From Nitrospira sp. (lineage in GTDB: Bacteria; Nitrospirota; Nitrospiria; Nitrospirales; Nitrospiraceae), in the NCBI GenBank assembly GCA_022226935.1, contig CP092081.1, forward strand, positions 1,504,315-1,568,314: a stretch of 64,000 nucleotides of DNA. The letters run 5' to 3'. Below the pieces are notes generated by a model. That model ran no database searches and was not told the DNA's origin. It saw only the letters and a list, made by a program, of their open reading frames with translations. Positions 48,440-64,000 of this stretch are shown here, piece by piece. Made by a program: the position numbers and the translations under genes. The stretch's first letter is position 1. Each line of letters opens with the position of its first letter.

Positions 48440-48596
48440 CGGGATTGCGCATTTCCATGGTGAAGCCTTCATTCAGGGAAGTTTCTCGCATCGTCAGACG
48501 TGCGCCGCAAGGGGATAATTGATGCCACCTAAGGCGACAGTGGCTTGCCTCCCTGTGTTAGGATGACCGGAGTTGGATCAGCCGGAGGATATAGAA

Positions 48597-50348
48597 ATGA
48601 GTGACCATCGGAATATGGATCAGCCTGGCCATGGGGGACATCAATCGCCCTCGCGTGACACCTCGACGCCTGCCGATCCCATCGAACTGATAGATGAATG
48701 CCTGGCCGCCTTTCCCGACGGCGACCCCCGCCAGAAAGTGCTCTATAAATTACGCCATGTCATGACGGCCCAGTCGGTGGCCCAGGATCGGCGCGACACC
48801 GAATTGAAAAAGCTCAATGAAGTGGTCGCGAAGCTCACGGCGCCGGCCAACCGTGTGGGCCTGCTCGTGGAGGTTCCGGCTGAGGGTGTGGCGCGTATCG
48901 TGGTGGGCGGGGCGGAATATTATGCCAACATCGACCCACGGCTGGCGGCAGAGGAGCTCAAGATCGGAACGCAGATTCTGGTCAACGAGGCCTACACGGT
49001 AATCAAGGTGCTGGGCTATGACCGCAATGGGCCGGTGTTGAAGGTTGCGGAGATTTTGCCCGACGGGCGTATCCGGTTCGAGCAAGACATGGGCCGGCAG
49101 GCCTTGATTCTCCAGCGGTCCACCGATTTGCTCGGCGTGGACCTCAAGGCCGGTGATGAAGTCCGCATCGAACCGACACATCGGATCGCCATTGAAAAGT
49201 TTGAAAATCGGCAGGCGCGGACCCACCTACTGGATGAGGTGCCGAACGTCACGTGGCAACAAATCGGGGGGCAGCATCAGGCGATTGACGCCATCCGTAA
49301 GGCGATCGAGTATCCGCTGCTCCATGCCGACACCTTCACGAAGTATCAATTTACGCAGCCGAAGGGATTCTTGCTGTATGGCCCACCGGGCTGCGGCAAG
49401 ACGATGATTGGCCAGGCGGCAGCCGCCAGTTTATCGCAGCTGGTGCGGGAGTCGCAGGGGCAGGCTGCTTCAGACGGCCAGGCGAAAAACCCGCCGGTCA
49501 CGAGTGGCGCGTTCCTCCATATCAAGGGACCGGAAATTCTTAACATGTGGTTGGGCGAGTCCGAGCGCATCGTTCGGGATCTCTTCGCCAAGGCGCGGGC
49601 CAGACGAAAAGAAGGGGCGCTCCCGTTTATTTTCATTGATGAAGCGGAGTCGGTGTTAGGGACCAGACGGTCGATGCGGTCATTCAACATCAACAATACG
49701 CTGGTGCCGATGTTCTGCGCGGAGATGGACGGAATCGAATCGTTGCAGGATGTGGTGATCATTCTGGCTTCTAACCGGCCGGACTTGATCGATCCCGCGG
49801 TGCTGCGGCCGGGCCGGATCGATCGCAAGATCAAAGTGGCGCGCCCGACTCGAGAGGCCGCCGTGGAGATCTTGTCCGTGTATCTGACCGCCGCGCTCCC
49901 GCTCGATTCCGCGTTGCTCGAGCAACACCATCAATCGCACGAGACGGCGCGCCGGGCAGTCATCGAGCAGGTGGTCGAGAGTCTCTTTTCCCGAACCGAT
50001 CAGAACCGTGTCTTATCCATCCGTCTGCGAAACGGACAGCACAAGGTGCTGTTTCGTGGCGATCTCGTCAGCGGGGCCATTCTCTCTGCCATCGTCCAGC
50101 GGGCGAAGGAAAAGGCGATCGAGCGGGCGGTGGCGCAGACAGGCGCCGCAGCCGGTGACGGCATTCGCGCGCAAGATCTGCTCGATGCCGTGCAGGAGGA
50201 ATATCGAGAAGGCGAGATGCTACCTCCCGACGATGCGGCGGAAGAATGGTTGAAGCTGTTGGACCATCACCCGGAGCAGGTGGTGGGAGTGTCCTCGTTC
50301 CGCCGCGGCCGGCCGACGGAAGAACGTTTGGTCAATCAAATTATTTGA
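48597..50348 (+). CDS. mpa: proteasomal AAA+ ATPase (Mpa/ARC)
   Basis: 583 residues from the ATG at 48597 (GGAGG eight bases upstream; the 48573 frame start has none). N-terminal coiled-coil region, double OB-fold interdomain (residues ~85-200), AAA+ core with GPPGCGKT (Walker A) and FIFIDEAE (Walker B), and the sensor ASNRPDLIDPAVLRPGRIDRK. It would recognise pupylated proteins and feed them to the 20S core. The usual actinobacterial C terminus GQYL for docking to the proteasome is absent; the protein ends VNQII. Confidence 0.95.
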   Translation: MSDHRNMDQPGHGGHQSPSRDTSTPADPIELIDECLAAFPDGDPRQKVLYKLRHVMTAQSVAQDRRDTELKKLNEVVAKLTAPANRVGLLVEVPAEGVARIVVGGAEYYANIDPRLAAEELKIGTQILVNEAYTVIKVLGYDRNGPVLKVAEILPDGRIRFEQDMGRQALILQRSTDLLGVDLKAGDEVRIEPTHRIAIEKFENRQARTHLLDEVPNVTWQQIGGQHQAIDAIRKAIEYPLLHADTFTKYQFTQPKGFLLYGPPGCGKTMIGQAAAASLSQLVRESQGQAASDGQAKNPPVTSGAFLHIKGPEILNMWLGESERIVRDLFAKARARRKEGALPFIFIDEAESVLGTRRSMRSFNINNTLVPMFCAEMDGIESLQDVVIILASNRPDLIDPAVLRPGRIDRKIKVARPTREAAVEILSVYLTAALPLDSALLEQHHQSHETARRAVIEQVVESLFSRTDQNRVLSIRLRNGQHKVLFRGDLVSGAILSAIVQRAKEKAIERAVAQTGAAAGDGIRAQDLLDAVQEEYREGEMLPPDDAAEEWLKLLDHHPEQVVGVSSFRRGRPTEERLVNQII

Positions 50349-50385
50349 GCGGCTACAATACGGTTCTACTCACGCATAACGGACT

Positions 50386-51909
50386 ATGCATCTCTTCGGC
50401 ATTGAAACAGAGTACGGCATCACCAGGGAGGATCTCGATGCGGTCGATCCGGTCGAGGAATCCATGGAATTGGTGCGTGCCCATCTGACCGGCGAGTTCG
50501 AACGGCGGTGGGATTACCGGGGCGAAGATCCGCACGAGGATGCGCGCGGCTTCCGCGTGTCCGGCCTGCAGCAGGACAAGGAGGAAGACGACTTTGCCAA
50601 GGTCGATGCCCATCGGCCCTATTCGTTCCACGAGATGAAGAGCGACTTGGTCTTGCCGAACGGCGCGCGGTTTTATAACGATCACACACATCCGGAATAT
50701 TCGACCCCCGAATGCCGGACGCTCAAAGATCTGCTGGCGCATGACCGGGCGGGAGAGCGCATTGTGCAACGCGCAGCGGATCGACGGAATCAGCGGCTGG
50801 GCGGGGCGCATGTCCAACTCTACAAGAATAATACCGACTTTCACGGCCACAGCTATGGCTGCCATGACAACTATCTCGTCCCGCGCGCATTGCCTTTCCC
50901 GCAATTGGTGCAGGGGCTCCTGCCGTTCCTCGTCAGCCGCCAGTTGTTCGCCGGCGCGGGGAAGGTAGGCATGGAAGCGCAGGAATCCGGCTTTGTGCCT
51001 GGTCCCTTCCAACTCTCGCAACGGGCAGATTTCATGGAGGCGGAGCTGGGCGTGGACACGATGCACAACCGGCCCATTCTCAATACACGCGACGAGCCCC
51101 ATGCGGACCGGGCGAAGTATCGGCGGCTCCATTTGATTGTCGGTGATGCCAACTTCTGTGAATATGCCACTGCGCTCAAAGTTGGTACCACGAGGCTGGT
51201 GCTGGATGTGCTGCAGCGGGGCGCGGCTCCACAGATAGAGTTGGAACAGCCGGTGGCCGCCATCAAGCAATTGTCTCGCGATCCCGATCTCAAAACGACG
51301 GTACGATTGAAGGACGGACGCACGATGTCTGGCCTGGCCATTCAGGAAGAGTACTGGAATGCGGCGAACCGGATTTGTGCCGGCAGCGATTCGGATGCCG
51401 ATTGGGTCCTACGGGAATGGCATGACACCTTGCAGTGCCTCGGGGGGGATCGGGCCCAGTTGGTTGGAAAGTTGGATTGGGTCACGAAGCAGTGGTTGCT
51501 GGAAACTTTCATGCGTGAGGAACAGCTCGCGTGGGAAGATCCCTGGCTCGCCAGCCTGGATTTGGAATATCATAATCTCAATCCTGACCGTGGATTGTTT
51601 CTCGGCCTCGAAGCCGAAGGGAAGACGTGGCGCATGACGACCGAGCGCGACATTGCCCAGGCGCTCGTGGCTGGTCCCTCAGATACCCGTGGAGGATTGC
51701 GCGGCTTGTGTGTCAGACGGTTTCCCGAACACATCACGGGGATGCAGTGGGAGCGGGTGCAGTTCGCGGGCGGGTTGCGGAGTCGTTCGCTGGAGATGGG
51801 CGATCTGTTCGATCCGGAGGCGGTGCAAGCCTGTGCGGCTTTGTTCGAAACCGCAGCCTCTCCTGCGGATGCCTTGGCTGCGTGGGCAAAACGAAAGGAC
51901 GTACAATAA
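50386..51909 (+). CDS. dop: Pup deamidase/depupylase Dop
   Basis: 507 residues. Begins with the FGIETEYGI motif of the carboxylate-amine ligase fold; the Dop-specific loop WDYRGEDPHEDARGF follows, and the catalytic-site segment reads YNDHTHPEYSTPEC. NTRDEPHAD and FQLSQRADF are also clear. The Dop loop and sequence order distinguish it from PafA encoded at 53905. It should convert the C-terminal Gln of Pup to Glu and remove Pup from targets. The stop overlaps the pup start (taATG). Confidence 0.95.
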   Translation: MHLFGIETEYGITREDLDAVDPVEESMELVRAHLTGEFERRWDYRGEDPHEDARGFRVSGLQQDKEEDDFAKVDAHRPYSFHEMKSDLVLPNGARFYNDHTHPEYSTPECRTLKDLLAHDRAGERIVQRAADRRNQRLGGAHVQLYKNNTDFHGHSYGCHDNYLVPRALPFPQLVQGLLPFLVSRQLFAGAGKVGMEAQESGFVPGPFQLSQRADFMEAELGVDTMHNRPILNTRDEPHADRAKYRRLHLIVGDANFCEYATALKVGTTRLVLDVLQRGAAPQIELEQPVAAIKQLSRDPDLKTTVRLKDGRTMSGLAIQEEYWNAANRICAGSDSDADWVLREWHDTLQCLGGDRAQLVGKLDWVTKQWLLETFMREEQLAWEDPWLASLDLEYHNLNPDRGLFLGLEAEGKTWRMTTERDIAQALVAGPSDTRGGLRGLCVRRFPEHITGMQWERVQFAGGLRSRSLEMGDLFDPEAVQACAALFETAASPADALAAWAKRKDVQ

Positions 51910-52103
51910 TGCGATATACAATGATGCCGGAACGTCGTGAGGCTCCGGGCGATCCGATGCCGAAACCGACCGGCCCCTCGGAAGAAGGCGGCGGTCCTCG
52001 GCGGCCGGATACCGGTTCACCGGACAAGGATAATTTGCTGAAGCGGATGCGAAAAGTCGACCCCAAGCAGGCGGAGCGTTATCGGCAGCGCACGGGACAA
52101 TAA
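51909..52103 (+). CDS. pup: prokaryotic ubiquitin-like protein Pup
   Basis: 64 residues, the normal size; start overlaps the dop stop by one base. Gly/Pro/Glu-rich disordered N-terminal half and a helical basic segment (DNLLKRMRKVDPKQAERY). The C terminus is RTGQ: a terminal Gln that needs deamidation by Dop before ligation by PafA, but with Thr replacing the first Gly of the usual GGQ. Pup marks proteins for Mpa-dependent degradation. Confidence 0.95.
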   Translation: MRYTMMPERREAPGDPMPKPTGPSEEGGGPRRPDTGSPDKDNLLKRMRKVDPKQAERYRQRTGQ

Positions 52104-52157
52104 ACGTGAACGCCATCGTGAAATGTAAAGGTTGTGGGTTTGTCTAAGAGGTAGGCA

Positions 52158-52931
52158 ATGGGGATGCAAGGAGATTTCTTTCAGCTGTTGAAGGAGCAGG
52201 GCTATCAGTTCGGTAATCCCGCCGCAGCCGCGACGGGATTGGATATTCCGAATGCCACCACGATTCTCGCGCTCAAGTATCGTGACGGAGTGCTGGTGGC
52301 AGGTGATCGCCGGGCCACCGCGGGCAACATGGTGATGTACGACCGGACCGACAAGGTGTTGGAGATCGATCGCCACAGTGTCTTGGCGATTGCCGGTGTA
52401 CCGGCCACTGCTTATGAAATGGTCCGCGTGCTGGAGCATTCGTTCAAGTATTACCGTCGCACACAGCTGCAGGAGCTGAGCTTTGAGGGCAAACTTCGCG
52501 CGGTGTCCAAGTTACTGAAAGAAAACGTGCCGGCGGCACTGGCTGGAACCGGAGCCGTGGTGCCGGTGTTTGCCGGGTATGATCATGAGCAGGAAGCGGC
52601 CAAGATCTACTTCTACGACATTCTGGGAGCCGAGTTCGAAGCGGTAGAGTACGCCGTGTCCGGATCCGGCTCGCCGACGATCCGGGGCATCCTTCATTAT
52701 GTCAATACCTGGGGCCCTCAACCGCTCGCAGCCTTGCCTGAGGAGCAGGCCACCGTACAAGCCCTGCGACTGCTCTCGAGCGCGGCGGAGTTCGATTCGG
52801 CGACCGGTGGCGTGAATCGTGAGCTGAATCTGTATCCGGTTGTGAAACTCATCACCGCAGCAGGGGTGCAGACCATTCCGGATACCAATTTGAAACAATT
52901 GTACGAGCGTGATGTCGTCCGCGCGCTCTAG
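52158..52931 (+). CDS. prcB: 20S proteasome beta subunit
   Basis: 257 residues with AGAGGTAGG upstream. A 33-residue propeptide precedes the expected autocatalytic cleavage site, exposing Thr34 as the N-terminal nucleophile (TTILALKYRDG). VLVAGDRRAT carries the conserved Asp/Arg, and a late SGSGSP segment supplies the Ser part of the active site. Forms the catalytic rings of the 20S core with PrcA, encoded 70 bases downstream. Confidence 0.95.
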   Translation: MGMQGDFFQLLKEQGYQFGNPAAAATGLDIPNATTILALKYRDGVLVAGDRRATAGNMVMYDRTDKVLEIDRHSVLAIAGVPATAYEMVRVLEHSFKYYRRTQLQELSFEGKLRAVSKLLKENVPAALAGTGAVVPVFAGYDHEQEAAKIYFYDILGAEFEAVEYAVSGSGSPTIRGILHYVNTWGPQPLAALPEEQATVQALRLLSSAAEFDSATGGVNRELNLYPVVKLITAAGVQTIPDTNLKQLYERDVVRAL

Positions 52932-53001
52932 CCCATAGATGTTCGCGTGAAGGCCGGCGAACTCGCTGGCCCTATGCTGATGAGGATGAAGGTGACGCGT
53001 T

Positions 53002-53835
53002 ATGTATGAAGAACCCTATCGGTGGATCGAGGCGGTCGGGAATCGGCGTCAGTATCTCGATGAACAGTTTGCGATGGGTGCGCCGGTTGTGGCGTTGGCC
53101 TACGCCGACGGCATCGTGATGCTGACCGTGAGCCGAGGCACACCCAAGCTGTATGAAATTTATGATCGTATTGCGCTGGGTGGAATGGGACATCCGGCCG
53201 ATCTGGAGAAGTTGCGGTTCTCGCTTTTGGAAATGGCCCATGTCGAAGGGTTCAATCGATCGCCGTCCGATGTCACAGGCGCAAGGCTGATGAAATATGG
53301 GTTGGCGCCGACCATCAAACAGGCCTTTGAAGAAATATATAAGGCGCCCTTCATCGCGAAAATTCTGCTGGCCGAATTGGGCGTGAAACCGGAGCGAGAC
53401 CTCTTTCTGACCATCAACTACGATGGGAACTTTGAGGAAAGGCGAGGCTGGGCGGCGCTTGGTGCCACACCCGCTGTTCAGCTTGAAATGGGGCGGTATA
53501 TCGACTCGCAATCCGGCTATGCCCAGGCCTCATTGGCGCAAGCCGTCGAAATCGGCCTCTGCGCGTGGGCGGTGGGATCTCTGGCGCAAACCTCATCCGG
53601 TACATCCGATGGCGAGTCGTCTTCTATTCGAGAGTCGGCAGAAAAATCGGAGGCGGAGGCCTTGCCGGACACAACGGCTTTGCTGGCCCATGTGCGGCAG
53701 ACCGTTGCTGAAAAGTCCCTGGAATGCGTGGTGCTGGAACGCAATGGTCCTGGTTCGTCTAAGTATCGGGCCCTTCGCGCGGACGAATTAGGCCGCCTGT
53801 TGCCGCCGGCGGTTCGAGCCTCAGACTCACATTGA
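53002..53835 (+). CDS. prcA: 20S proteasome alpha subunit
   Basis: 277 residues with AAGGTG ahead of the ATG. Starts EEPYRWIEAVGNRRQYLDEQF, as alpha subunits that form the gate; APVVALAYADGIVMLTV is the beta-strand pair matching the Ntn-hydrolase fold without a catalytic Thr. The C-terminal ~80 residues are an acidic/Ser-rich linker followed by a VRQTVAEKSLECVVLERN segment and a tail. The gate and the C-terminal HbYX-type contacts with Mpa cannot be judged from sequence alone. Confidence 0.95.
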   Translation: MYEEPYRWIEAVGNRRQYLDEQFAMGAPVVALAYADGIVMLTVSRGTPKLYEIYDRIALGGMGHPADLEKLRFSLLEMAHVEGFNRSPSDVTGARLMKYGLAPTIKQAFEEIYKAPFIAKILLAELGVKPERDLFLTINYDGNFEERRGWAALGATPAVQLEMGRYIDSQSGYAQASLAQAVEIGLCAWAVGSLAQTSSGTSDGESSSIRESAEKSEAEALPDTTALLAHVRQTVAEKSLECVVLERNGPGSSKYRALRADELGRLLPPAVRASDSH

Positions 53836-53904
53836 TGTGCCGTCTACACATGGCCTTGGCATCGAGCAAGCCCTGGAGCCCCATATCATCAATAGTTTGC
53901 TGAC

Positions 53905-55395
53905 ATGCTGAATCGTATTTTCGGGATCGAGACGGAATATGGCCTCTTGGTCAACCAGGATCGGCCTGACCATTCGCCTTCCTGGGTGGCGCAGCGCATC
54001 CGGGATCACATTTTTCATATCGCGCGTCGCGGGGTTCTCGATCTTCATCATCGTGGACATGATGAGCCGCCCGGCAACGGGGGGTTTTTGACAAATGCCG
54101 GGCGCATCTACATCGACATGGGCCATTTGGAATATGCCTCGCCTGAATGCACGACCCTGGCGGATCTCGTCGCATCGGACCGCGCTGGGGACCGGATCAT
54201 TCAACAGGCCGTGACTGCGTTGGGACTGGAAGAGACAGTCTCACTCATCAAGAACAATATCGACCACGAGACCGATGCGACGTTCGGGTCGCATGAAAAC
54301 TACCTCGTCAGCCGCCAATTTCCGTTTTCCCGGCGTGGTCTTGGCCCCCTCGTGACGTTTTTGGTCACCCGACAGGTGTTTACCGGCGCGGGGCGGATCG
54401 GTTGTGCCGGTGATCCGAATGAATGGGTCCAAATTGGCGGGCTCATCTTGCATCGCCCCGGGCTGCGGGATGCCCACGATCGATCGATTGTCCCCTTTCA
54501 GATCTCGCAGCGGGCCGATTATATCGTGAACGATTTTTTTGAGTGGGTGCAGCACAATCGAGCCATCGTCAATACGCGCGATGAACCGCTGGCGGATCCG
54601 AATCAATACCGCCGCATCCACCTCCTCTGCGGCGATTCGAATATGGCTGAATATGCCACGGCCCTGAAGATGGGCACGACAGGATTGGTTCTGCAACTGA
54701 TCGAAGCCGGGCAGGCCCCCCGTGGATTGAGTATCAGCGAGCCGGTTGAAGCTCTGCAGGAGATTTCGCGAGACCCGGATCGGCAATGGATCGTCCGGTT
54801 GGAATCCGGCCAGTCGATGTCCGCCCTCGATATACAAGAGCAGTTTCTCGCCGCCGCGCAGCGCCATTGCAAGGGACAGGATGAGGAGACGGATTGGGTG
54901 CTGGAACAATGGGAGTCGGTGTTGACCGATCTGCGGCACGGGTATGAAAAACTCGTGGGTCGGATCGACTGGGCCTCAAAGCTCTGGCTCTTGGAAACCT
55001 ACCGGGAGGCGGAACAGTTGGCGTGGGACGATCCGATGCTGAAGAGTCTCGACCTGGAATACCACAACCTACACCCGGAGCGCGGACTCTGCTACGGCCT
55101 TGAAGAAGAAGGGCGCGGGCTTCGTCTCACAACGGATAAGGGCGTTCAATTAGCGCAGGACCATCCACCCCGCAATACGCGGGCCTTCGGCCGGGGTGAA
55201 TTGGTCCGGCATCTGTTGGCGTCCACCACTGCCGGAGGAGAGGCGGATGCCGCTCATAGTTATGGTGACCATGCCTCCTGCGAGTACATCATCAACTGGT
55301 CCAATTTTAAGTTGCGTGATACCGAGCCGTTCTTTATGGCAGACCCCTTCAAAACCTACGTGCAGGACGTGCGGAGTCATCTGAGCGGCCGATAG
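53905..55395 (+). CDS. pafA: Pup ligase PafA
   Basis: 496 residues. Starts with FGIETEYGLLVNQ; the catalytic Asp segment reads IYIDMGHLEYASPEC. VNTRDEPLAD, KNNIDHETDATFGSHENYL and the C-terminal FFMADPFKTYVQ match PafA rather than Dop, and the Dop loop is missing. It joins deamidated Pup to substrate lysines using ATP. Last gene of the proteasome operon; the next gene converges 7 bases downstream. Confidence 0.95.
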   Translation: MLNRIFGIETEYGLLVNQDRPDHSPSWVAQRIRDHIFHIARRGVLDLHHRGHDEPPGNGGFLTNAGRIYIDMGHLEYASPECTTLADLVASDRAGDRIIQQAVTALGLEETVSLIKNNIDHETDATFGSHENYLVSRQFPFSRRGLGPLVTFLVTRQVFTGAGRIGCAGDPNEWVQIGGLILHRPGLRDAHDRSIVPFQISQRADYIVNDFFEWVQHNRAIVNTRDEPLADPNQYRRIHLLCGDSNMAEYATALKMGTTGLVLQLIEAGQAPRGLSISEPVEALQEISRDPDRQWIVRLESGQSMSALDIQEQFLAAAQRHCKGQDEETDWVLEQWESVLTDLRHGYEKLVGRIDWASKLWLLETYREAEQLAWDDPMLKSLDLEYHNLHPERGLCYGLEEEGRGLRLTTDKGVQLAQDHPPRNTRAFGRGELVRHLLASTTAGGEADAAHSYGDHASCEYIINWSNFKLRDTEPFFMADPFKTYVQDVRSHLSGR

Positions 55396-56718: not shown

Positions 56719-57368
56719 GATGAGTGACAGCGCGAAGGTTTAGGCCCTGTGGGTAACATAACTCTCCCTTCAAAGCAACCGAGCAGCTGTCTGACTATGC
56801 GGCCCTCGCTCGATGCAATTCGTTGATGAGACGGCTATCAGGCGTATGCGGCCAATGCTCGAAGATGCGGAGCAAGAAAAACAGGCCGGGCTGTTGTCAG
56901 TGCAATGGCGTGGATACGGTAGGTCTCGGAATTACGTATGCCATATGTCCGCGTCAGTATCATGACGGTCGTCAGCGCTCTGACTGGCCCCATCAGTGTG
57001 TGAGCGGCCGTAGGCGGCACGATTGGCGACAGACGGCCCTGCAGCTAACAACTAAGTTATTTCTTGTAGGCCACGGCACATTTTTTCCGCTGATGAGTTG
57101 ACAATTATGTCTAATTCCCTAGAATAAGCTTCGAATCTCAGACAGGTTAGCTGGTCGCTGTGTGTTTACACTGAGGCTGTGCGTGCCGCTTATCCTTCCC
57201 CGTTTTGATCATCCGACATCCTCCCGCTGTTTTGGAATCGTTCGTGCGCTTGCAAGAGTCCAGCCTCGCCCGGAGCTTGATGCATGAAGCGGCGAGATGG
57301 CCACAAGTTGCTTACCGCGATGCTGTGGCAGGACCGACACCAGGACTCAAATTAGCGGGAGGAAATGT
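56719..57368. other. 650-base intergenic region holding a promoter
   Basis: No gene is supported between the lipoprotein and the PilZ-fusion gene. It contains the promoter at 57098-57125, about 240 bases ahead of the next start codon, leaving a long 5' leader in which I see no clear riboswitch or terminator. Confidence 0.4.
57098..57125 (+). promoter_or_regulatory. sigma70-like promoter for the PilZ-fusion gene
   Basis: TTGACA at 57098-57103 and TAGAAT at 57120-57125 with a 16-base AT-rich spacer. Close to consensus. Would give a leader of about 235 bases. Confidence 0.5.
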
Positions 57369-60101
57369 ATGTTGTCTGATAGCACTGCGCGTAATGTGAC
57401 TCAGCCGTTGCCTGCTCTGTGCGGGCATGAGGATAGCCTGAACGTTCCGGTGGCCGATAGAAAGAAAACGAAGGACGCCTGGTCGCTTTCTCTCGCGGAA
57501 CGGCGAGCGTCTCGTCGTCTGGCGCTTCGCTTGTCCACTCAGCTGTTCTTTCAGGGACACACCTGGAAGGGGGTTACCAGGAGCCTCAGTCTGGGCGGTC
57601 TCTCCATGGACTTTGTGTCCGACATTCCGGCCATGCTGAATCAACAGATGATGCTGAGCTTCACCCCGGATGAGGGCGGATTGGACAGCATCGGCATCGT
57701 GTGCGGCATTCGCTCGTCCGAGGATGTGCACGTGTCTGGTCGTACCCACACTGCGGTGACACTGGCCATCCAATTCGTACGCCTGAGTGCCGCCGACGAA
57801 CTGGTCGTGGCATCGCTCCTCAGTCAGGGGGCCACCCCACCAAGGCAGATGCGTCTAGCGGCCGCCTTAGTCGTGCAGGAAGGGGAAGAGTCACTCATCG
57901 ATATCGGTTCACTACAGACCGCGAGCGCGCCGCCGTCGCCCATGCAACTGGTACGAGGTCCAGAGCGCCCGCGAGAAGAGCGACGGCGCCAGCAGCGCGT
58001 GATGGTTGGATTGAGCACCGAAGTGAGTCTCCGCACTCGTACCGGCGGCCGGCCGTTGTCCGCCGGTATGACGACGGATTTGTCGTCCAATGGGGCGTGC
58101 GTCCACCTGTCGGCTGAAGAGGATCTGTTGGGATCGGAACTCGAATTACGATGGTCGCAATCGGCCGCTCTCCAGGGATCGTTGGCCAGTCCGATGCCGA
58201 CCACGCTATGTTCCGTGATCGGGCAAGTCGTGTGGACCAGGCCCGTTGCACCAGATGCTCGCCCCGGTTGCGTCCCCGTGGCTGGGTGTTCCGTGCTCGC
58301 AGGGGTGCGGTTTCTTCCGGTTGCGAAGGAAGCCGAAGATATCATCGAACATTTGCTGGGACAGATGCAGATGCCGAGCCTCGAAGCGACGGCTGGAAGC
58401 CCCGCCGTCCTCAGTGAGTTTTCCGAATGTTTTCGGCCTTCCGGTCTCCGGATCGTGATTTGCCATGATCGGCCGCGAGCTGAACAGGCGGCCGAGGCTC
58501 CGATTATCGTGTTGGCGCCGGGATATGGGGAGAGCAAGCGCGATTATGTGCCCTTAGCGTACTACCTGGCCGGTAATGGGTTCCACGTGGTCCGCTACGA
58601 CAATGTGAATCATGTCGGGGAAAGCGACGGCTTGGTGACTCAATTTCGGCTGGAGGACATGGAGGCCGATCTCGAAACCGTGTTGGACCATGTCGCTCAT
58701 CAATGGCCGGGTCGACCGATCGGCCTCGTGGCGACCAGTCTGGCGGGACGCGTCGCGCTGAAGGTAGCCGGCAAGGTGTCACATGTGCGGCTCTTGACGC
58801 TCATCAACGGGATCATGGATGTCCGGCATACGCTGCAGGCCGTGCATCAAGAGGATTTGATCGGTGAGCATCTGGCCGGTGTGCACAAGGGGGTGGTGAA
58901 TATTATGGGTCTCACCATCGATGCGGATCGATGGTTGGCGCATGCGGTGCAGGGGAATTATGCCGATCTCCTGACGACGCAGCACGACGCTGCGCGTCTA
59001 CGAACTCCGGTTGTGCTGTTTCACGCCGAACAGGACGCGTGGGTTGATCCTGGCTCTATAGAGCGTGTCACTGAGGCGATCGGTCCGTATCTGCGCCACT
59101 CCTTCGTCGTGCCGGGCGCCTTACATCGTTTGCAGGAAAGTCCACGGAAAGCCCGCGCGGTATACCGGCAAATCGCTGCCTGTTGCCAACAGGAACTCTG
59201 GCCTGCGCGGCGCCAGGAGCGAATGGTCGAACCGTCCCACCGCGAAATCGGCATGCAGAACCGGCTTGAGCGCGAGCGGAGCAAGAAGCGGAAGCCGATG
59301 GGAAAGTCTGATCACGTGTCGTTTTGGCAAGAGTATTTACGGAATTTTCAGACGATTCCCAATGTGGCCGATTTCTGGCGCCTCATGGATCATCTCTATC
59401 GGTTGATGGGCAATTGTCACAAGGGCGAGCGGATTTTGGATGCCGGGTGCGGGAACGGCAATTTTGGTGTCTTCCTGCAACTGAATCAGGCGTTCCGGCA
59501 GCGATATGGCAAGCGCGGGGATTTTCGCTCACCCGACTATGTCGGTCTTGACTTTGTGCCAACTGCATTGGCTCAAGCCATGAGCAATTTCAAGCAGGTC
59601 AGCGCGACGCTGCAGGGGCAATTTTATGAAGGGCTGCGGGCATATGAGCCCATGTCGATGCGTGTCTGTCAGGCGGATTTGGAATGTGCGCTGCCGTTTC
59701 CCGATCATTCCTTCGATCGCGTCGTATGCAACCTCGTGTTGGGGTATGTGCGCGACCCGCTCTTTACCTTACGTGAATACTTGCGCGTGCTGACTCCGCA
59801 GGGGCGCTTGGTCATTTCCAATCTGAAGCCGTATGCGGATCTTTCGGCCATTTACCGCAATTTTGTGGATACTGCTCAAACGAAGGATCAAGTCGAGGAA
59901 GGTCGGCGCCTACTGGACAATTCTGGTAGAATCAAGGAACGCGAAGGCGAAGGCACGTTTCATTTCCACTATCAGGCTGAATTAGAACGTCTGCTGCGCG
60001 CCGCGGGAGTCTCTCGCCCGCGGGTTTATTCCACGTTCGGCAATCAAGCCCTCATTGCCGTGGCCGAGAAGGGCATGGCGCATGTCACGGTCGCTGCATG
60101 A
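57369..60101 (+). CDS. PilZ-PilZ-LuxD-like acyl hydrolase-methyltransferase fusion
   Basis: 910 residues from the ATG at 57369, which has GGGAGGAAA upstream. PilZ 1 (~35-150): RRASRRLALRL and a degenerate SLSLGG. PilZ 2 (~195-335): RRRQQRVMVGL and TDLSSNGACVHL, the canonical cyclic-di-GMP motifs RxxxR and DxSxxG. Residues ~365-605 match LuxD-type acyl transferases/thioesterases: APGYGESKRDY, GNGFHVVRYDNVNHVGESDG, nucleophile S457 (ATSLAGRVA), D556 (HAEQDAWV) and H586 (GALHRLQES). The spacing 99 and 30 is almost that of the known LuxD triad. Residues ~650-905 are a class I SAM methyltransferase with LDAGCGNG (Asp691) and ADLECALPFPDHSFD. The protein probably acts on an acyl thioester or lipid-like substrate under second-messenger control. 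I know of no such fusion. Confidence 0.85.
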   Translation: MLSDSTARNVTQPLPALCGHEDSLNVPVADRKKTKDAWSLSLAERRASRRLALRLSTQLFFQGHTWKGVTRSLSLGGLSMDFVSDIPAMLNQQMMLSFTPDEGGLDSIGIVCGIRSSEDVHVSGRTHTAVTLAIQFVRLSAADELVVASLLSQGATPPRQMRLAAALVVQEGEESLIDIGSLQTASAPPSPMQLVRGPERPREERRRQQRVMVGLSTEVSLRTRTGGRPLSAGMTTDLSSNGACVHLSAEEDLLGSELELRWSQSAALQGSLASPMPTTLCSVIGQVVWTRPVAPDARPGCVPVAGCSVLAGVRFLPVAKEAEDIIEHLLGQMQMPSLEATAGSPAVLSEFSECFRPSGLRIVICHDRPRAEQAAEAPIIVLAPGYGESKRDYVPLAYYLAGNGFHVVRYDNVNHVGESDGLVTQFRLEDMEADLETVLDHVAHQWPGRPIGLVATSLAGRVALKVAGKVSHVRLLTLINGIMDVRHTLQAVHQEDLIGEHLAGVHKGVVNIMGLTIDADRWLAHAVQGNYADLLTTQHDAARLRTPVVLFHAEQDAWVDPGSIERVTEAIGPYLRHSFVVPGALHRLQESPRKARAVYRQIAACCQQELWPARRQERMVEPSHREIGMQNRLERERSKKRKPMGKSDHVSFWQEYLRNFQTIPNVADFWRLMDHLYRLMGNCHKGERILDAGCGNGNFGVFLQLNQAFRQRYGKRGDFRSPDYVGLDFVPTALAQAMSNFKQVSATLQGQFYEGLRAYEPMSMRVCQADLECALPFPDHSFDRVVCNLVLGYVRDPLFTLREYLRVLTPQGRLVISNLKPYADLSAIYRNFVDTAQTKDQVEEGRRLLDNSGRIKEREGEGTFHFHYQAELERLLRAAGVSRPRVYSTFGNQALIAVAEKGMAHVTVAA

Positions 60102-60134: not shown

Positions 60135-63100
60135 ATGAAAGTGCTCGCATTCAGCGCGCTGGTCAATGCGTTGGCTGCGACGGGGCTCGGAATGTTCGTG
60201 TACTTCCGGGATCCTGCCGCTGCCCGCAACCGGATCTACGGGCTGTACTGTCTGAGCATCGCCTTCTGGAGCATATTTTACTGCGGCTGGCAGCTTGCGG
60301 AGTCGAAGGAGCTCGCCCTGAGCCTGTTGCGCCTGGTCATGGCCGGCGCGTCGCTCATTCCCATCCTGTATTTTCACCACACGGTCACGTTTCTCGACAT
60401 TGCGGCTCGCCATGCCAGGGCGCTCAAGATCGGGTATGGATTAGCCGGGCTGTTCCTCCTCGCCGATACGACCCCCTGGCTTGTGGCGGGGGTGCATCCG
60501 GCAATGTCCTTTTCCTTCTGGCCCGTGCCGGGCCCATTTTTCCATCCCTTCCTCGCCTATTTTCTCTGGTATGTGATCTACGCCACCTCGCTCGTGGGCG
60601 TGGCGCTTCGCGATGCCAATGGGATCCGGCGCCATCAATATGCCTACATGCTGGCGGCCAGCGTCATCGGCTATGCGGGCGGCGCGACGAATTTCCCGCT
60701 CTGGTACGGCGTCCCGCTCTTGCCCTATGGCACGGTGCTGATCACGATGTATACCGCGTTGATGGCCTATACGATTGTTCGGTATCGCCTGATGAATATC
60801 AGCGTCGTGCTGAACAAGGGGCTGGGATATGCCATCGTACTTGCGATTATTGTGGTGGCGACCTCGATCGGCGCCGTGCTCAGCAATCGGGCGACCGGGC
60901 ATTCCACTCCTCCCTTATTAGCCGGAACCCTGTTTTTGATCTGTGCCTTGTGGGTTCTCAGCAATAATCCGCGCTCCTCCTCCAATACGGTGTTTAGTGC
61001 GGTATGCGGTGCCGCGTGCCTCTGGCTATTCGGCTGCTTCATGCTGTTCTCTGCCTCTCACGAAGAGGAAGCGCTGTTCTGGGTGCGAGTGATTTATACC
61101 GGTGTCGTGTTTCTGCCCGCCTTGACCTATCACTTTGCACAGAGGCTTGCCGGAGGGGCCGTACAGGATCGCCTGATTCTGTGGAACTATGTCCTCGGCG
61201 GGGTGTTCTGGAGTCTCTTGTTCACGACTTATCTGGTGGACGGACAGTATGTCTATTACTGGGGCCGGTATCCCAAGGCCGGAGTACTCCACCCATGGCT
61301 CGTCGCCTACGTGGTGGCAGGAGGCGGGCTGACGGTGCATCGACTGTATCAGGGCTATCGCGACCATCAGGCGTCCGCTCCTCTTCTGGCCGCCCAATTG
61401 AAATACACCTTGGTGGCGCTGTTGCTGGGGTTCCTGGCTTCCCTCGATTTCCTGCAAAACTATGGCGTGGGATTCTATCCGGTCGGCTACTTGCTGGCAG
61501 GCCTGTCTGTGACGGTCGTCGCCTATGCCATCGCACGATACGAATTGATGGATATCTCGTTTGTGCCGACCAGGCCGAAGGTCATGTTATCGATCAAGCT
61601 CGCGGGGCTGATTCCGGCCTATATGATGATTTTGCTCGTCATTCGAATTTTCACCGGAACCTTCCACTATCTGCTTGCCGGAGTGCTGTTCGGGCTATTT
61701 GTCATTGTGTCGAGTGGGTTGGCCAATCTGCAAAAAGGCGTGGAGCGTGCGATCGGGCAGACCCTCTTTCGAGAGCGATATGATGCGTACGACACACTGG
61801 TGCAATTTTCCAAGTCTCTGGTGGCGATCCTCGAGCTGAAATCCCTGACGAAGGAAATCGTACAAACCCTGGCCCGTGTGATGAACATCAAGACCGCGTC
61901 CGTGTATGTCCTCGATAAGGAGCAGGGGGTATACAGCTTGACCGCTTCCTATGGGTTTGTGGCGAGAGATGTGATCGTGCCTCCCATCAAGATAGAGAGC
62001 GAGTTCCCGCGAGCCCTGTTGCGAACCGAAACCGCCCTCGTCCGAGAAGAAATCGAATATGACAAGGCTGACCTCGACTACCTGCGATTGCTGGATACCC
62101 TGAAAGGGTTGGAATCGGAAGTCTGCATCCCCTTGATCAGCAAGGAGCGGCTTGTCGGTTTTTGTAATTTAGGACGCCGTGCGAACCATGGCATGTATTC
62201 GACGGAAGAACTGGCTTTGCTTAAAACGCTGGCGCAACATGCGGCGATTGCGATCGATAACGCCTTGCTGTACGAAGACCTGCGTCGGTCTCAGTTATTG
62301 ATGCGCCGCACCGACCGTCTCCGGTCACTGGAAACCATGGCCGGAGGATTTGCTCATGAGATTCGGAATCCGCTGACCTCCATTAAAACGTTCGTTCAAC
62401 TGGCTCCCGACCGGCGAGATGATGTGGAATTCATGGAGCAATTTAGTCAGGTGGTCTGTGAGGATGTCGAGCGAATTGAACGGCTGGTCCACGAAATTCT
62501 GGACTATGCGCGGTATATGACACCGAAATTGACGCAGGAGAGTTTGAACGATGTCGTGTCGTCCTGTTTGTATTTTATCGAGGTGAAGGCGAGCAGCAAA
62601 GCCATCACCATTCAAAAGGAACTCGCGCCTGATCTACCCTACGTCAAGCTGGATCGTCAGCAAATCAAGCAAGTGCTGCTCAATTTATTTATCAATGCGA
62701 TGGAAGCCATCGGAAGCGAACAGGGCGGCCGCCTCTCCGTCCGCACACGAAAACTCGTCAAATCTATGAATGAGCCGTGGGTGCAGATCGAAGTGGAGGA
62801 TAGCGGGCCGGGGATCGAACCGCATGATCTGGATCATATTTTCGATCCGTTTTATACCACCAAGCATGAAAGTGGCGAACGTGAGGGCACCGGTCTTGGT
62901 TTGACCATTGCCCACCAAATTGTTCAGGAGCACGGCGGCTATGTGGAAGTGTTCAGTGAAGTGGGGCATGGCACCAAATTTATGGTGAGTCTTCCCGTAA
63001 ACCCGCCCATGGCGGAGTGGCAGGCGGCCCAGCCGGTCTATGATGATGGGCGAAAGCTTGCGGGAGCATTTTTAGCCAGGCCTCATCTGGGGTTGGACGC

Positions 63101-63143
63101 ACAGTTCAGCAAGTCGGACTCGCCCCTCAAAACGCGAACATGA
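60135..63143 (+). CDS. membrane histidine kinase with two multi-TM sensor modules, GAF, HisKA and ATPase
   Basis: 1002 residues. Residues 1-~230 and ~265-~475 each look like a seven-helix sensor unit of the histidine-kinase N-terminal 7TM type; both end with similar IVRYRLMNIS and IARYELMDIS segments. Two further helices follow, then a GAF domain (~550-715; VCIPLISKERLVGFCNLG), HisKA with phosphoacceptor H741 (AHEIRNPLTS), and an ATPase with NLFINAMEAI, DSGPGIEP and GTGLGLTIAHQIV. No response regulator is encoded in the window. It starts 33 bases after the PilZ fusion gene and is probably in its operon. Confidence 0.9.
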   Translation: MKVLAFSALVNALAATGLGMFVYFRDPAAARNRIYGLYCLSIAFWSIFYCGWQLAESKELALSLLRLVMAGASLIPILYFHHTVTFLDIAARHARALKIGYGLAGLFLLADTTPWLVAGVHPAMSFSFWPVPGPFFHPFLAYFLWYVIYATSLVGVALRDANGIRRHQYAYMLAASVIGYAGGATNFPLWYGVPLLPYGTVLITMYTALMAYTIVRYRLMNISVVLNKGLGYAIVLAIIVVATSIGAVLSNRATGHSTPPLLAGTLFLICALWVLSNNPRSSSNTVFSAVCGAACLWLFGCFMLFSASHEEEALFWVRVIYTGVVFLPALTYHFAQRLAGGAVQDRLILWNYVLGGVFWSLLFTTYLVDGQYVYYWGRYPKAGVLHPWLVAYVVAGGGLTVHRLYQGYRDHQASAPLLAAQLKYTLVALLLGFLASLDFLQNYGVGFYPVGYLLAGLSVTVVAYAIARYELMDISFVPTRPKVMLSIKLAGLIPAYMMILLVIRIFTGTFHYLLAGVLFGLFVIVSSGLANLQKGVERAIGQTLFRERYDAYDTLVQFSKSLVAILELKSLTKEIVQTLARVMNIKTASVYVLDKEQGVYSLTASYGFVARDVIVPPIKIESEFPRALLRTETALVREEIEYDKADLDYLRLLDTLKGLESEVCIPLISKERLVGFCNLGRRANHGMYSTEELALLKTLAQHAAIAIDNALLYEDLRRSQLLMRRTDRLRSLETMAGGFAHEIRNPLTSIKTFVQLAPDRRDDVEFMEQFSQVVCEDVERIERLVHEILDYARYMTPKLTQESLNDVVSSCLYFIEVKASSKAITIQKELAPDLPYVKLDRQQIKQVLLNLFINAMEAIGSEQGGRLSVRTRKLVKSMNEPWVQIEVEDSGPGIEPHDLDHIFDPFYTTKHESGEREGTGLGLTIAHQIVQEHGGYVEVFSEVGHGTKFMVSLPVNPPMAEWQAAQPVYDDGRKLAGAFLARPHLGLDAQFSKSDSPLKTRT

Positions 63144-63254: not shown

Positions 63255-64000
63255 TTATGCCCGCGAAGAAATCCACTCGATAATCCTGTTTTCCGCCCAA
63301 AACCGATCCTCTCCATACCGGCGTTTCTGAAAAAACCCGCAGTGCCCGCCGTTCCGTAGCATCGCCAGGCTAATATGGCGATTGTCGCTGATTGCCCTGG
63401 TCTTGAATATCGATGCCGGAATAAACGGGTCATCCTGGGCTGTGATAATCAACGTAGGCACCGCAATCTCGGATAATACGTGGCGGGCTCCCGCTCGATT
63501 GTAATAATCCGAGGCATCCCGATACCCACCGTCGCGTGCGGTGTACGTATCGTCGAACTGTGTAATCGTCTTCATTGCGCGTAACGGCGAGAGATTCCAT
63601 TGGCCTGGAAACAGAGCGGCTTTCCGTTGTATTCGTGCTTTGAGGCTCGAAAGGAAGTGCGCATGATAGAGCCAGTTCCGAGGCTCCTCCAGAGCGGTCA
63701 CGCATGGCGTAGGATCAATGTTGGGACTGACGGCTATCACGCCTGCAAGGGCCGCGTCCGATCGTTGCAGCTCTCCCGCTGCCTTGAGGACGAGATTTCC
63801 CCCCATCGAGTACCCGACGAGCCAGATACGGCTCAGGCCATTGCGTTCTCGTAATTCGTGCAGGATGGTTCGGTAATCATTGCTGAGTCCGCTGTTATAC
63901 AGAGTCGGAGTCAGGTGATCCGTGCCGCCGCAGGTGCGTTGGTTCATCCGGATGACATTGAATCCAGCACGGAAGGCCTTCGCCGCCATCCCACGCATAT
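63255..64000 (-). CDS. YheT-like alpha/beta hydrolase (N-terminal part outside window)
   Basis: The frame runs to the window edge; the first visible Met belongs to an internal RGMAAKAF segment that, in YheT/ABHD-type esterases, lies ~90 residues from the start. Visible are RTCGGTDHLTP (oxyanion region), the nucleophile elbow GYSMGGN, the Asp region TAQDDPFIP and the His region NGGHCGFFQ, a complete triad. Predicted cytoplasmic esterase of the UPF0017/YheT family. It converges on the histidine kinase gene. Confidence 0.9.
   Translation of the reverse strand, partial: MRGMAAKAFRAGFNVIRMNQRTCGGTDHLTPTLYNSGLSNDYRTILHELRERNGLSRIWLVGYSMGGNLVLKAAGELQRSDAALAGVIAVSPNIDPTPCVTALEEPRNWLYHAHFLSSLKARIQRKAALFPGQWNLSPLRAMKTITQFDDTYTARDGGYRDASDYYNRAGARHVLSEIAVPTLIITAQDDPFIPASIFKTRAISDNRHISLAMLRNGGHCGFFQKRRYGEDRFWAENRIIEWISSRA

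Follow-up and report, generated by a model that had tools for sequence, protein, structure and literature searches.

A LuxD-like hydrolase-methyltransferase of Nitrospira with PilZ domains and its paired 7TM histidine kinase: a possible acyl-signal cassette in several bacterial phyla

What might a bacterial protein do that joins two PilZ domains to a LuxD-like hydrolase and a methyltransferase, and with which partner does it work? The question is raised by a gene in a 64,000-nucleotide stretch of a Nitrospira sp. genome (contig CP092081.1), which was analysed as a whole and is here called the window. An initial annotation had described the gene as one 910-residue frame containing all four domains, and this description holds: positions 57369-60101 (+) form a single unbroken frame of 910 codons, with Pfam matches to every part (Table 1). 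An alternative in-frame ATG at 57297 would yield a 934-aa product, and we favor the ATG at 57369 as the start because a GGGAGG sequence sits 6 bases ahead of it. A search of close relatives for a frameshift or assembly join splitting the domains found the fusion intact in most genomes of the genus, and as this one-frame form is kept there at 64-92% identity it does not stem from an assembly join. In two relatives (G001 and G007) most of the second PilZ domain is gone, and a third (G009), a fragmented draft assembly, has an internal stop in the enzyme frame. Family matches occur in 98 of the 121 genomes of the order, some of the weak ones being other methyltransferases. A literature search for a PilZ-LuxD-methyltransferase protein found nothing.

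Table 1. Positions in the window of the enzyme gene, the kinase gene and their predicted features.
Feature	Positions	Strand	Basis or remark
Ribosome-binding site GGGAGG	57357..57362	+	Sequence; 6 bases 5' of ATG 57369
PilZ-PilZ-LuxD-like hydrolase-SAM methyltransferase, 910 aa	57369..60101	+	Pfam; predicted structure
PilZ domain 1 (residues 44-152)	57498..57824	+	Pfam PilZ; motif alignment
PilZ domain 2 (residues 204-330)	57978..58358	+	Pfam PilZ; motif alignment
LuxD-type alpha/beta hydrolase (residues 364-603)	58458..59177	+	PF02273; 1tht best structural match
Catalytic Ser457, predicted nucleophile	58737..58739	+	Aligned with S114 of 1tht; kept by all class A members
Catalytic Asp556, predicted	59034..59036	+	Aligned with D211 of 1tht; conserved
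Catalytic His586, predicted	59124..59126	+	Aligned with H241 of 1tht; conserved
Class I SAM methyltransferase domain (residues 646-902)	59304..60074	+	Pfam Methyltransf_31/11/25; conserved motif
Histidine kinase, 1002 aa: two 7TM modules, GAF, HisKA, HATPase	60135..63143	+	Pfam; predicted structure; position
Kinase membrane module 1: seven helices, with a beta hairpin joining helices 4 and 5	60138..60788	+	AlphaFold2 model
Kinase membrane module 2 (PF16927): seven helices, with a beta hairpin joining helices 4 and 5	60906..61541	+	Pfam; AlphaFold2 model
Kinase GAF domain	61833..62258	+	PF13185
Kinase HisKA domain, AHEIRNP H-box	62331..62513	+	PF00512; sequence
Kinase HATPase_c domain	62652..63002	+	PF02518, E 5e-27

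The central domain matches the Pfam family Acyl_transf_2 (PF02273) with E 7.2e-25 and 88.3 bits against a gathering cut-off of 20.3, over residues 364-603 where 365-605 had first been given, and the closest sequence of solved structure in a phmmer search is LuxD itself (1tht, E 1e-16). An AlphaFold2 model of the full 910-aa enzyme (mean pLDDT 79.8) bears out the LuxD-type fold: both Foldseek and VIA-align return 1tht, the Vibrio harveyi myristoyl-ACP thioesterase, as the top structural match, the latter with Z 31.6 over 282 residues at 2.7 A against Z 29.4 for the next match. As the list from this fold search is filled by hydrolases, the structural result speaks for the hydrolase part and not for the methyltransferase or PilZ parts. 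The predicted triad aligns residue by residue with that of 1tht and its spacing is as originally stated, 99 and 30 residues against 97 and 30 in LuxD. The window hydrolase shares with LuxD the fold, the Ser-Asp-His triad at equivalent positions and an RYD..HVGxS motif, but it is only ~21% identical to it and scores 86.1 bits with the LuxD equivalog model NF052253 (NCBIfam), far under the cut-off of 420; moreover, it is fused to a methyltransferase, is paired with a kinase and has no clear LuxC partner. A profile search of the genome for LuxC gave one marginal match (21.8 bits against a cut-off of 21), a level also seen in E. coli, and we reject a link to bioluminescence given that the genome contains no clear LuxC.

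Pfam detects PilZ in two stretches, the better being the second one (E 1.2e-16). That domain displays both c-di-GMP motifs, RRRQQR and DLSSNG, in agreement with the initial annotation, whereas the first keeps the RxxxR motif and has a degenerate DxSxxG in which S replaces D/N. Thus, when a PilZ receptor is defined by a Pfam match together with RxxxR and D/NxSxxG, the second domain qualifies and the first falls short by the D/N. The C-terminal region contains a class I methyltransferase (Pfam, residues 684-828, E 3e-15) with the motif I DAGCGNG that had been noted, at residues 691-697 (59439-59459); motif, Pfam match and model agree on a motif I in a Rossmann domain, as in class I SAM methyltransferases.

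The initial annotation overlooked a kinase partner, which is the constant feature of the system. The kinase gene begins 33 bases after the enzyme gene, and its product matches HisKA_7TM (PF16927) in two stretches with 67.4 bits against a cut-off of 28.6. We do not claim the 7TM modules to be homologues of GPCRs: the best Foldseek E-value is only 8e-3, and VIA Z-scores of up to 17.7 to GPCR-type folds point at most to a similar helix arrangement. The GAF-HisKA-HATPase half resembles that of PrsK (TIGR02916, E 9e-42), but the score with that model is 143.6 bits where the cut-off demands 300, and its identification as the PEP-CTERM system histidine kinase PrsK was likewise rejected.

To place this pair in a wider context we scanned one genome per species and recovered 79 loci encoding the hydrolase-methyltransferase. 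These loci belong to Nitrospirota (with one record titled Nitrospinota), across which a survey of the fusion had first been suggested, and also to Verrucomicrobiota, Omnitrophota and Elusimicrobiota, the Verrucomicrobiota loci being mainly from Opitutia and including a complete genome (CP011265). A 7TM-kinase lies immediately downstream in 73 of the 75 loci with enough 3' sequence; in many of these pairs the stop of the enzyme gene and the start of the kinase gene overlap by 4 bp, and in one Nitrospirota locus (L041) both proteins are merged in a single frame. Where it seemed to be absent, at several loci of Opitutia, ORF calling was at fault, and tblastn recovers the kinase. In one of the two exceptions (L165) the hydrolase serine is lost and the kinase has no 7TM part.

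The PilZ domains are more variable than the kinase. Verrucomicrobiota proteins comprise the hydrolase-methyltransferase alone and one Omnitrophota locus has an SRPBCC domain in place of PilZ, with PilZ being attached in Nitrospirota (another class too) and Elusimicrobiota. Because the enzyme occurs without PilZ in the former and with SRPBCC in the latter, PilZ is a lineage-specific add-on and c-di-GMP gating is not the core of the system. The earlier suggestion of c-di-GMP-gated acyl release and methylation thus stands in part: profile, structure and conservation back its domains, and acyl release with methylation, giving for example an acyl ester signal, is still the leading idea, but the absence of PilZ from Verrucomicrobiota counts against gating as a general property.

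The order contains two paralogous types of the enzyme. In class A, to which the window protein belongs, no member checked in any of the phyla has lost the triad residues (Ser, Asp and His) or the DAGCGNG motif. Class B proteins, of ~1400 aa, have the form REC-PAS-kinase-like-PilZ-PilZ-hydrolase-methyltransferase; their catalytic serine is changed to aspartate, the His position is lost, the third position is usually lost too, and motif I of the methyltransferase is eroded. The window's genome carries one of each. Its class B gene (G000:C1:504122-506668; L002 1483-5547; L052 8105-12310), with a destroyed hydrolase triad, is followed by genes for a soluble GAF kinase that lacks the 7TM part, for an NtrC-type regulator and for a REC-HD-GYP protein. 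More generally, loci with dead hydrolases pair with a kinase without 7TM, with two exceptions that carry a PilZ-ketoacyl-ACP synthase III and keep the 7TM part. On the tree this amounts to one change of the serine and two of the 7TM region; we reject the co-loss as statistical proof and treat it as an illustration, because these one or two evolutionary events are not phylogenetically independent. Next in line at many Nitrospirota loci are genes for an NtrC-type sigma-54 regulator and for a REC-HD-GYP phosphodiesterase, whose HD-GYP motifs are intact in most of them and read GNP for GYP in the window's genome; in that genome the two regulators are encoded at the paralogous locus and not beside the window pair.

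A comparison of gene contexts showed kinases of this type downstream of other enzymes as well, most of which are predicted from their sequences to act on acyl thioesters: 1) In Nitrospirota it follows a PilZ-ketoacyl-ACP synthase III with an intact Cys-His-Asn triad; at two loci (L061 5933-7498 and L044 7158-8756) this gene is flanked on one side by the 7TM-kinase and on the other by a family member that lacks the triad or the hydrolase. 2) In another Nitrospirota locus (L123 8822-10657) a PilZ-HMG-CoA reductase directly precedes a two-module 7TM histidine kinase. 3) An acyl-ACP-reductase-like protein (L124) or PilZ-TenA/diiron-oxidase-like proteins (L086, L122 and L135) take this position in further Nitrospirota. 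4) An acyl-CoA dehydrogenase is found upstream of more distant kinase relatives (L234 and L236). A second, related 7TM-kinase follows a gene for a HAD-type phosphatase in another family of the order (L125-L131 and L137), an arrangement that fits an acyl signal less well. Genes of fatty-acid metabolism also surround the pair: in Omnitrophota the neighbouring genes encode an ACP (DLGVDSM), FabZ, a reductase and two ketoacyl synthases, FabG genes are also met, and at one of these loci (L182) housekeeping genes of fatty-acid synthesis lie on both sides of the cassette. At least 12 Opitutia loci include a FadL-type outer-membrane transporter. At one of these (L208 3331-7786) the transporter gene lies between those for a GAF-HATPase protein and a REC-kinase protein, and this group is divergent from the hydrolase-methyltransferase/7TM-kinase pair, a gene order repeated in many Opitutia loci.

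Taken together, these observations appear to be best explained by a two-gene cassette of signal synthase and receptor. We propose, tentatively and at somewhat less than an even chance, that the enzyme makes an acyl-derived, probably methyl-esterified signal under throttling by c-di-GMP, and that the adjacent kinase reads it, in a manner like RpfF/RpfC/RpfG or PhcB/PhcS but without homology to RpfF. The hydrolase would remove an acyl chain from ACP or CoA, and the methyltransferase would cap the carboxylate so released, or alter the chain itself, the result being a hydrophobic acyl signal, for instance a fatty acid methyl ester; the carboxylate is a candidate acceptor, the substrate of the domain not being predictable from sequence. 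This signal would bind to the 7TM modules of the adjacent kinase, leading to phosphotransfer to NtrC-type sigma-54 and REC-HD-GYP response regulators. The PilZ pair may let c-di-GMP adjust signal production, and HD-GYP output would then close a c-di-GMP loop; against this part of the proposal stand the degenerate first PilZ domain, the two close relatives without most of the second, and the GNP in the HD-GYP protein of the window's genome.

The relationship could also run in the opposite direction, with the 7TM-kinase sensing the membrane or environment and the hydrolase-methyltransferase remodelling lipids (membrane homeostasis, acyl turnover) as its output under c-di-GMP as a second control. 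A REC-PAS region is indeed fused to the enzyme in many Nitrospirota members, PilZ and SRPBCC suit regulated lipid enzymes, and HMG-CoA reductase and acyl-CoA dehydrogenase (the latter beside distant relatives) belong to general lipid metabolism. However, the receivers fused to the Nitrospirota enzymes have lost the conserved acidic pocket, which weakens the case for a classical phosphorylated output; the Verrucomicrobiota and most Omnitrophota enzymes offer no receiver or PilZ for a kinase to act on, and yet the pairing is conserved; and one sensor type is common to many different enzymes. Given the lack of a regulatory domain in Verrucomicrobiota and of the acidic pocket in Nitrospirota, the enzyme more likely acts upstream of the kinase, and we consider the output model rather unlikely. 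Less probable still is a specialised secreted lipid or antibiotic-like product with the kinase as a cluster regulator answering an unrelated cue: the Omnitrophota loci do resemble small biosynthetic clusters (KS, KS, ACP, FabZ, reductase) and Opitutia have FadL, but in Nitrospirota and Verrucomicrobiota the enzyme and kinase stand alone without such a cluster, and the sensor stays constant while the enzyme varies. That the catalytic domains serve chiefly for sensing or as a scaffold in a c-di-GMP-responsive kinase partner, as the retention of the architecture in class B with its destroyed triad and eroded motif I might suggest for the triad-less paralogue, is very improbable for class A, where triad and DAGCGNG are intact in all members checked.

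The window contains further genes of interest. On the evidence of translations alone, a proteasome-like locus at 48573-55395 encodes an AAA+ ATPase, two proteasome subunits, two Pup-ligase/Dop-like paralogues (50386-51909 and 53905-55395) and a short Pup-like ORF with a GQ end (about 51909-52103). An alpha/beta hydrolase gene at 63255-63998 (-) is convergent to the kinase gene, and a similar-sized gene occupies its position at the other class A loci of the genus.

The synthase/receptor reading bears on how nitrifiers communicate. AHL synthases are the sole quorum-sensing genes reported in Nitrospirales and are missing from many lineages (PMC12342949). Among 121 relatives, 17 have LuxI (PF00765); the sampled members of the window's own genus all lack it, and only two genomes combine it with the 7TM kinase type (Fisher p 4e-4 by genome, 0.40 by genus). 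As the significance is gone at the genus level we reject this exclusion as proof; the anti-correlation suggests alternative signalling but is confounded by descent. A broader generalization, that these loci define a new class of lipid signalling, present in at least four phyla and serving Nitrospira lineages without AHL synthases, is possible if somewhat doubtful; here exchangeable enzymes of acyl thioesters or lipids (the LuxD-like hydrolase-methyltransferase, ketoacyl synthase III, HMG-CoA reductase and the acyl-ACP-reductase-like and diiron-oxidase-like proteins), often PilZ-controlled, would each supply a 7TM receptor kinase of their own. If the cassette does make and sense an acyl signal, these central nitrifiers would gain a signalling system whose enzyme, receptor and tie to a second messenger are defined, and acyl signalling would extend to Verrucomicrobiota, Omnitrophota and Elusimicrobiota. 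The exchange of enzymes before one 7TM-kinase type is a ready-made experiment on the evolution of such signals.

Two characterized systems are instructive in this respect. DSF signalling combines an acyl-ACP thioesterase-type synthase, RpfF, with the membrane kinase RpfC and the HD-GYP regulator RpfG (PMC4504480). The present loci likewise place an enzyme predicted to act on acyl-ACP next to a membrane sensor kinase, the 7TM-kinase being adjacent in the window and a REC-HD-GYP protein being adjacent in many relatives but lying at the paralogous locus in the window's genome. However, the candidate synthase is an alpha/beta hydrolase-methyltransferase and not an RpfF-type crotonase, the kinase is of a 7TM-GAF type as against the 5-TM phosphorelay kinase RpfC, and the cassette studied here adds an NtrC regulator and PilZ on the enzyme. 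In the second system, that of Ralstonia, the methyltransferase PhcB produces a hydroxy fatty acid methyl ester (3-OH-PAME or 3-OH-MAME) sensed by the kinase PhcS (PMC8578825). It resembles our cassette in the proximity of methyltransferase and sensor kinase genes, in the presence of receiver/kinase proteins in the locus and in the fatty acid methyl ester proposed here as the signal; our cassette differs in the fusion of a thioesterase to the methyltransferase, in the PilZ domains and in its occurrence in other phyla.
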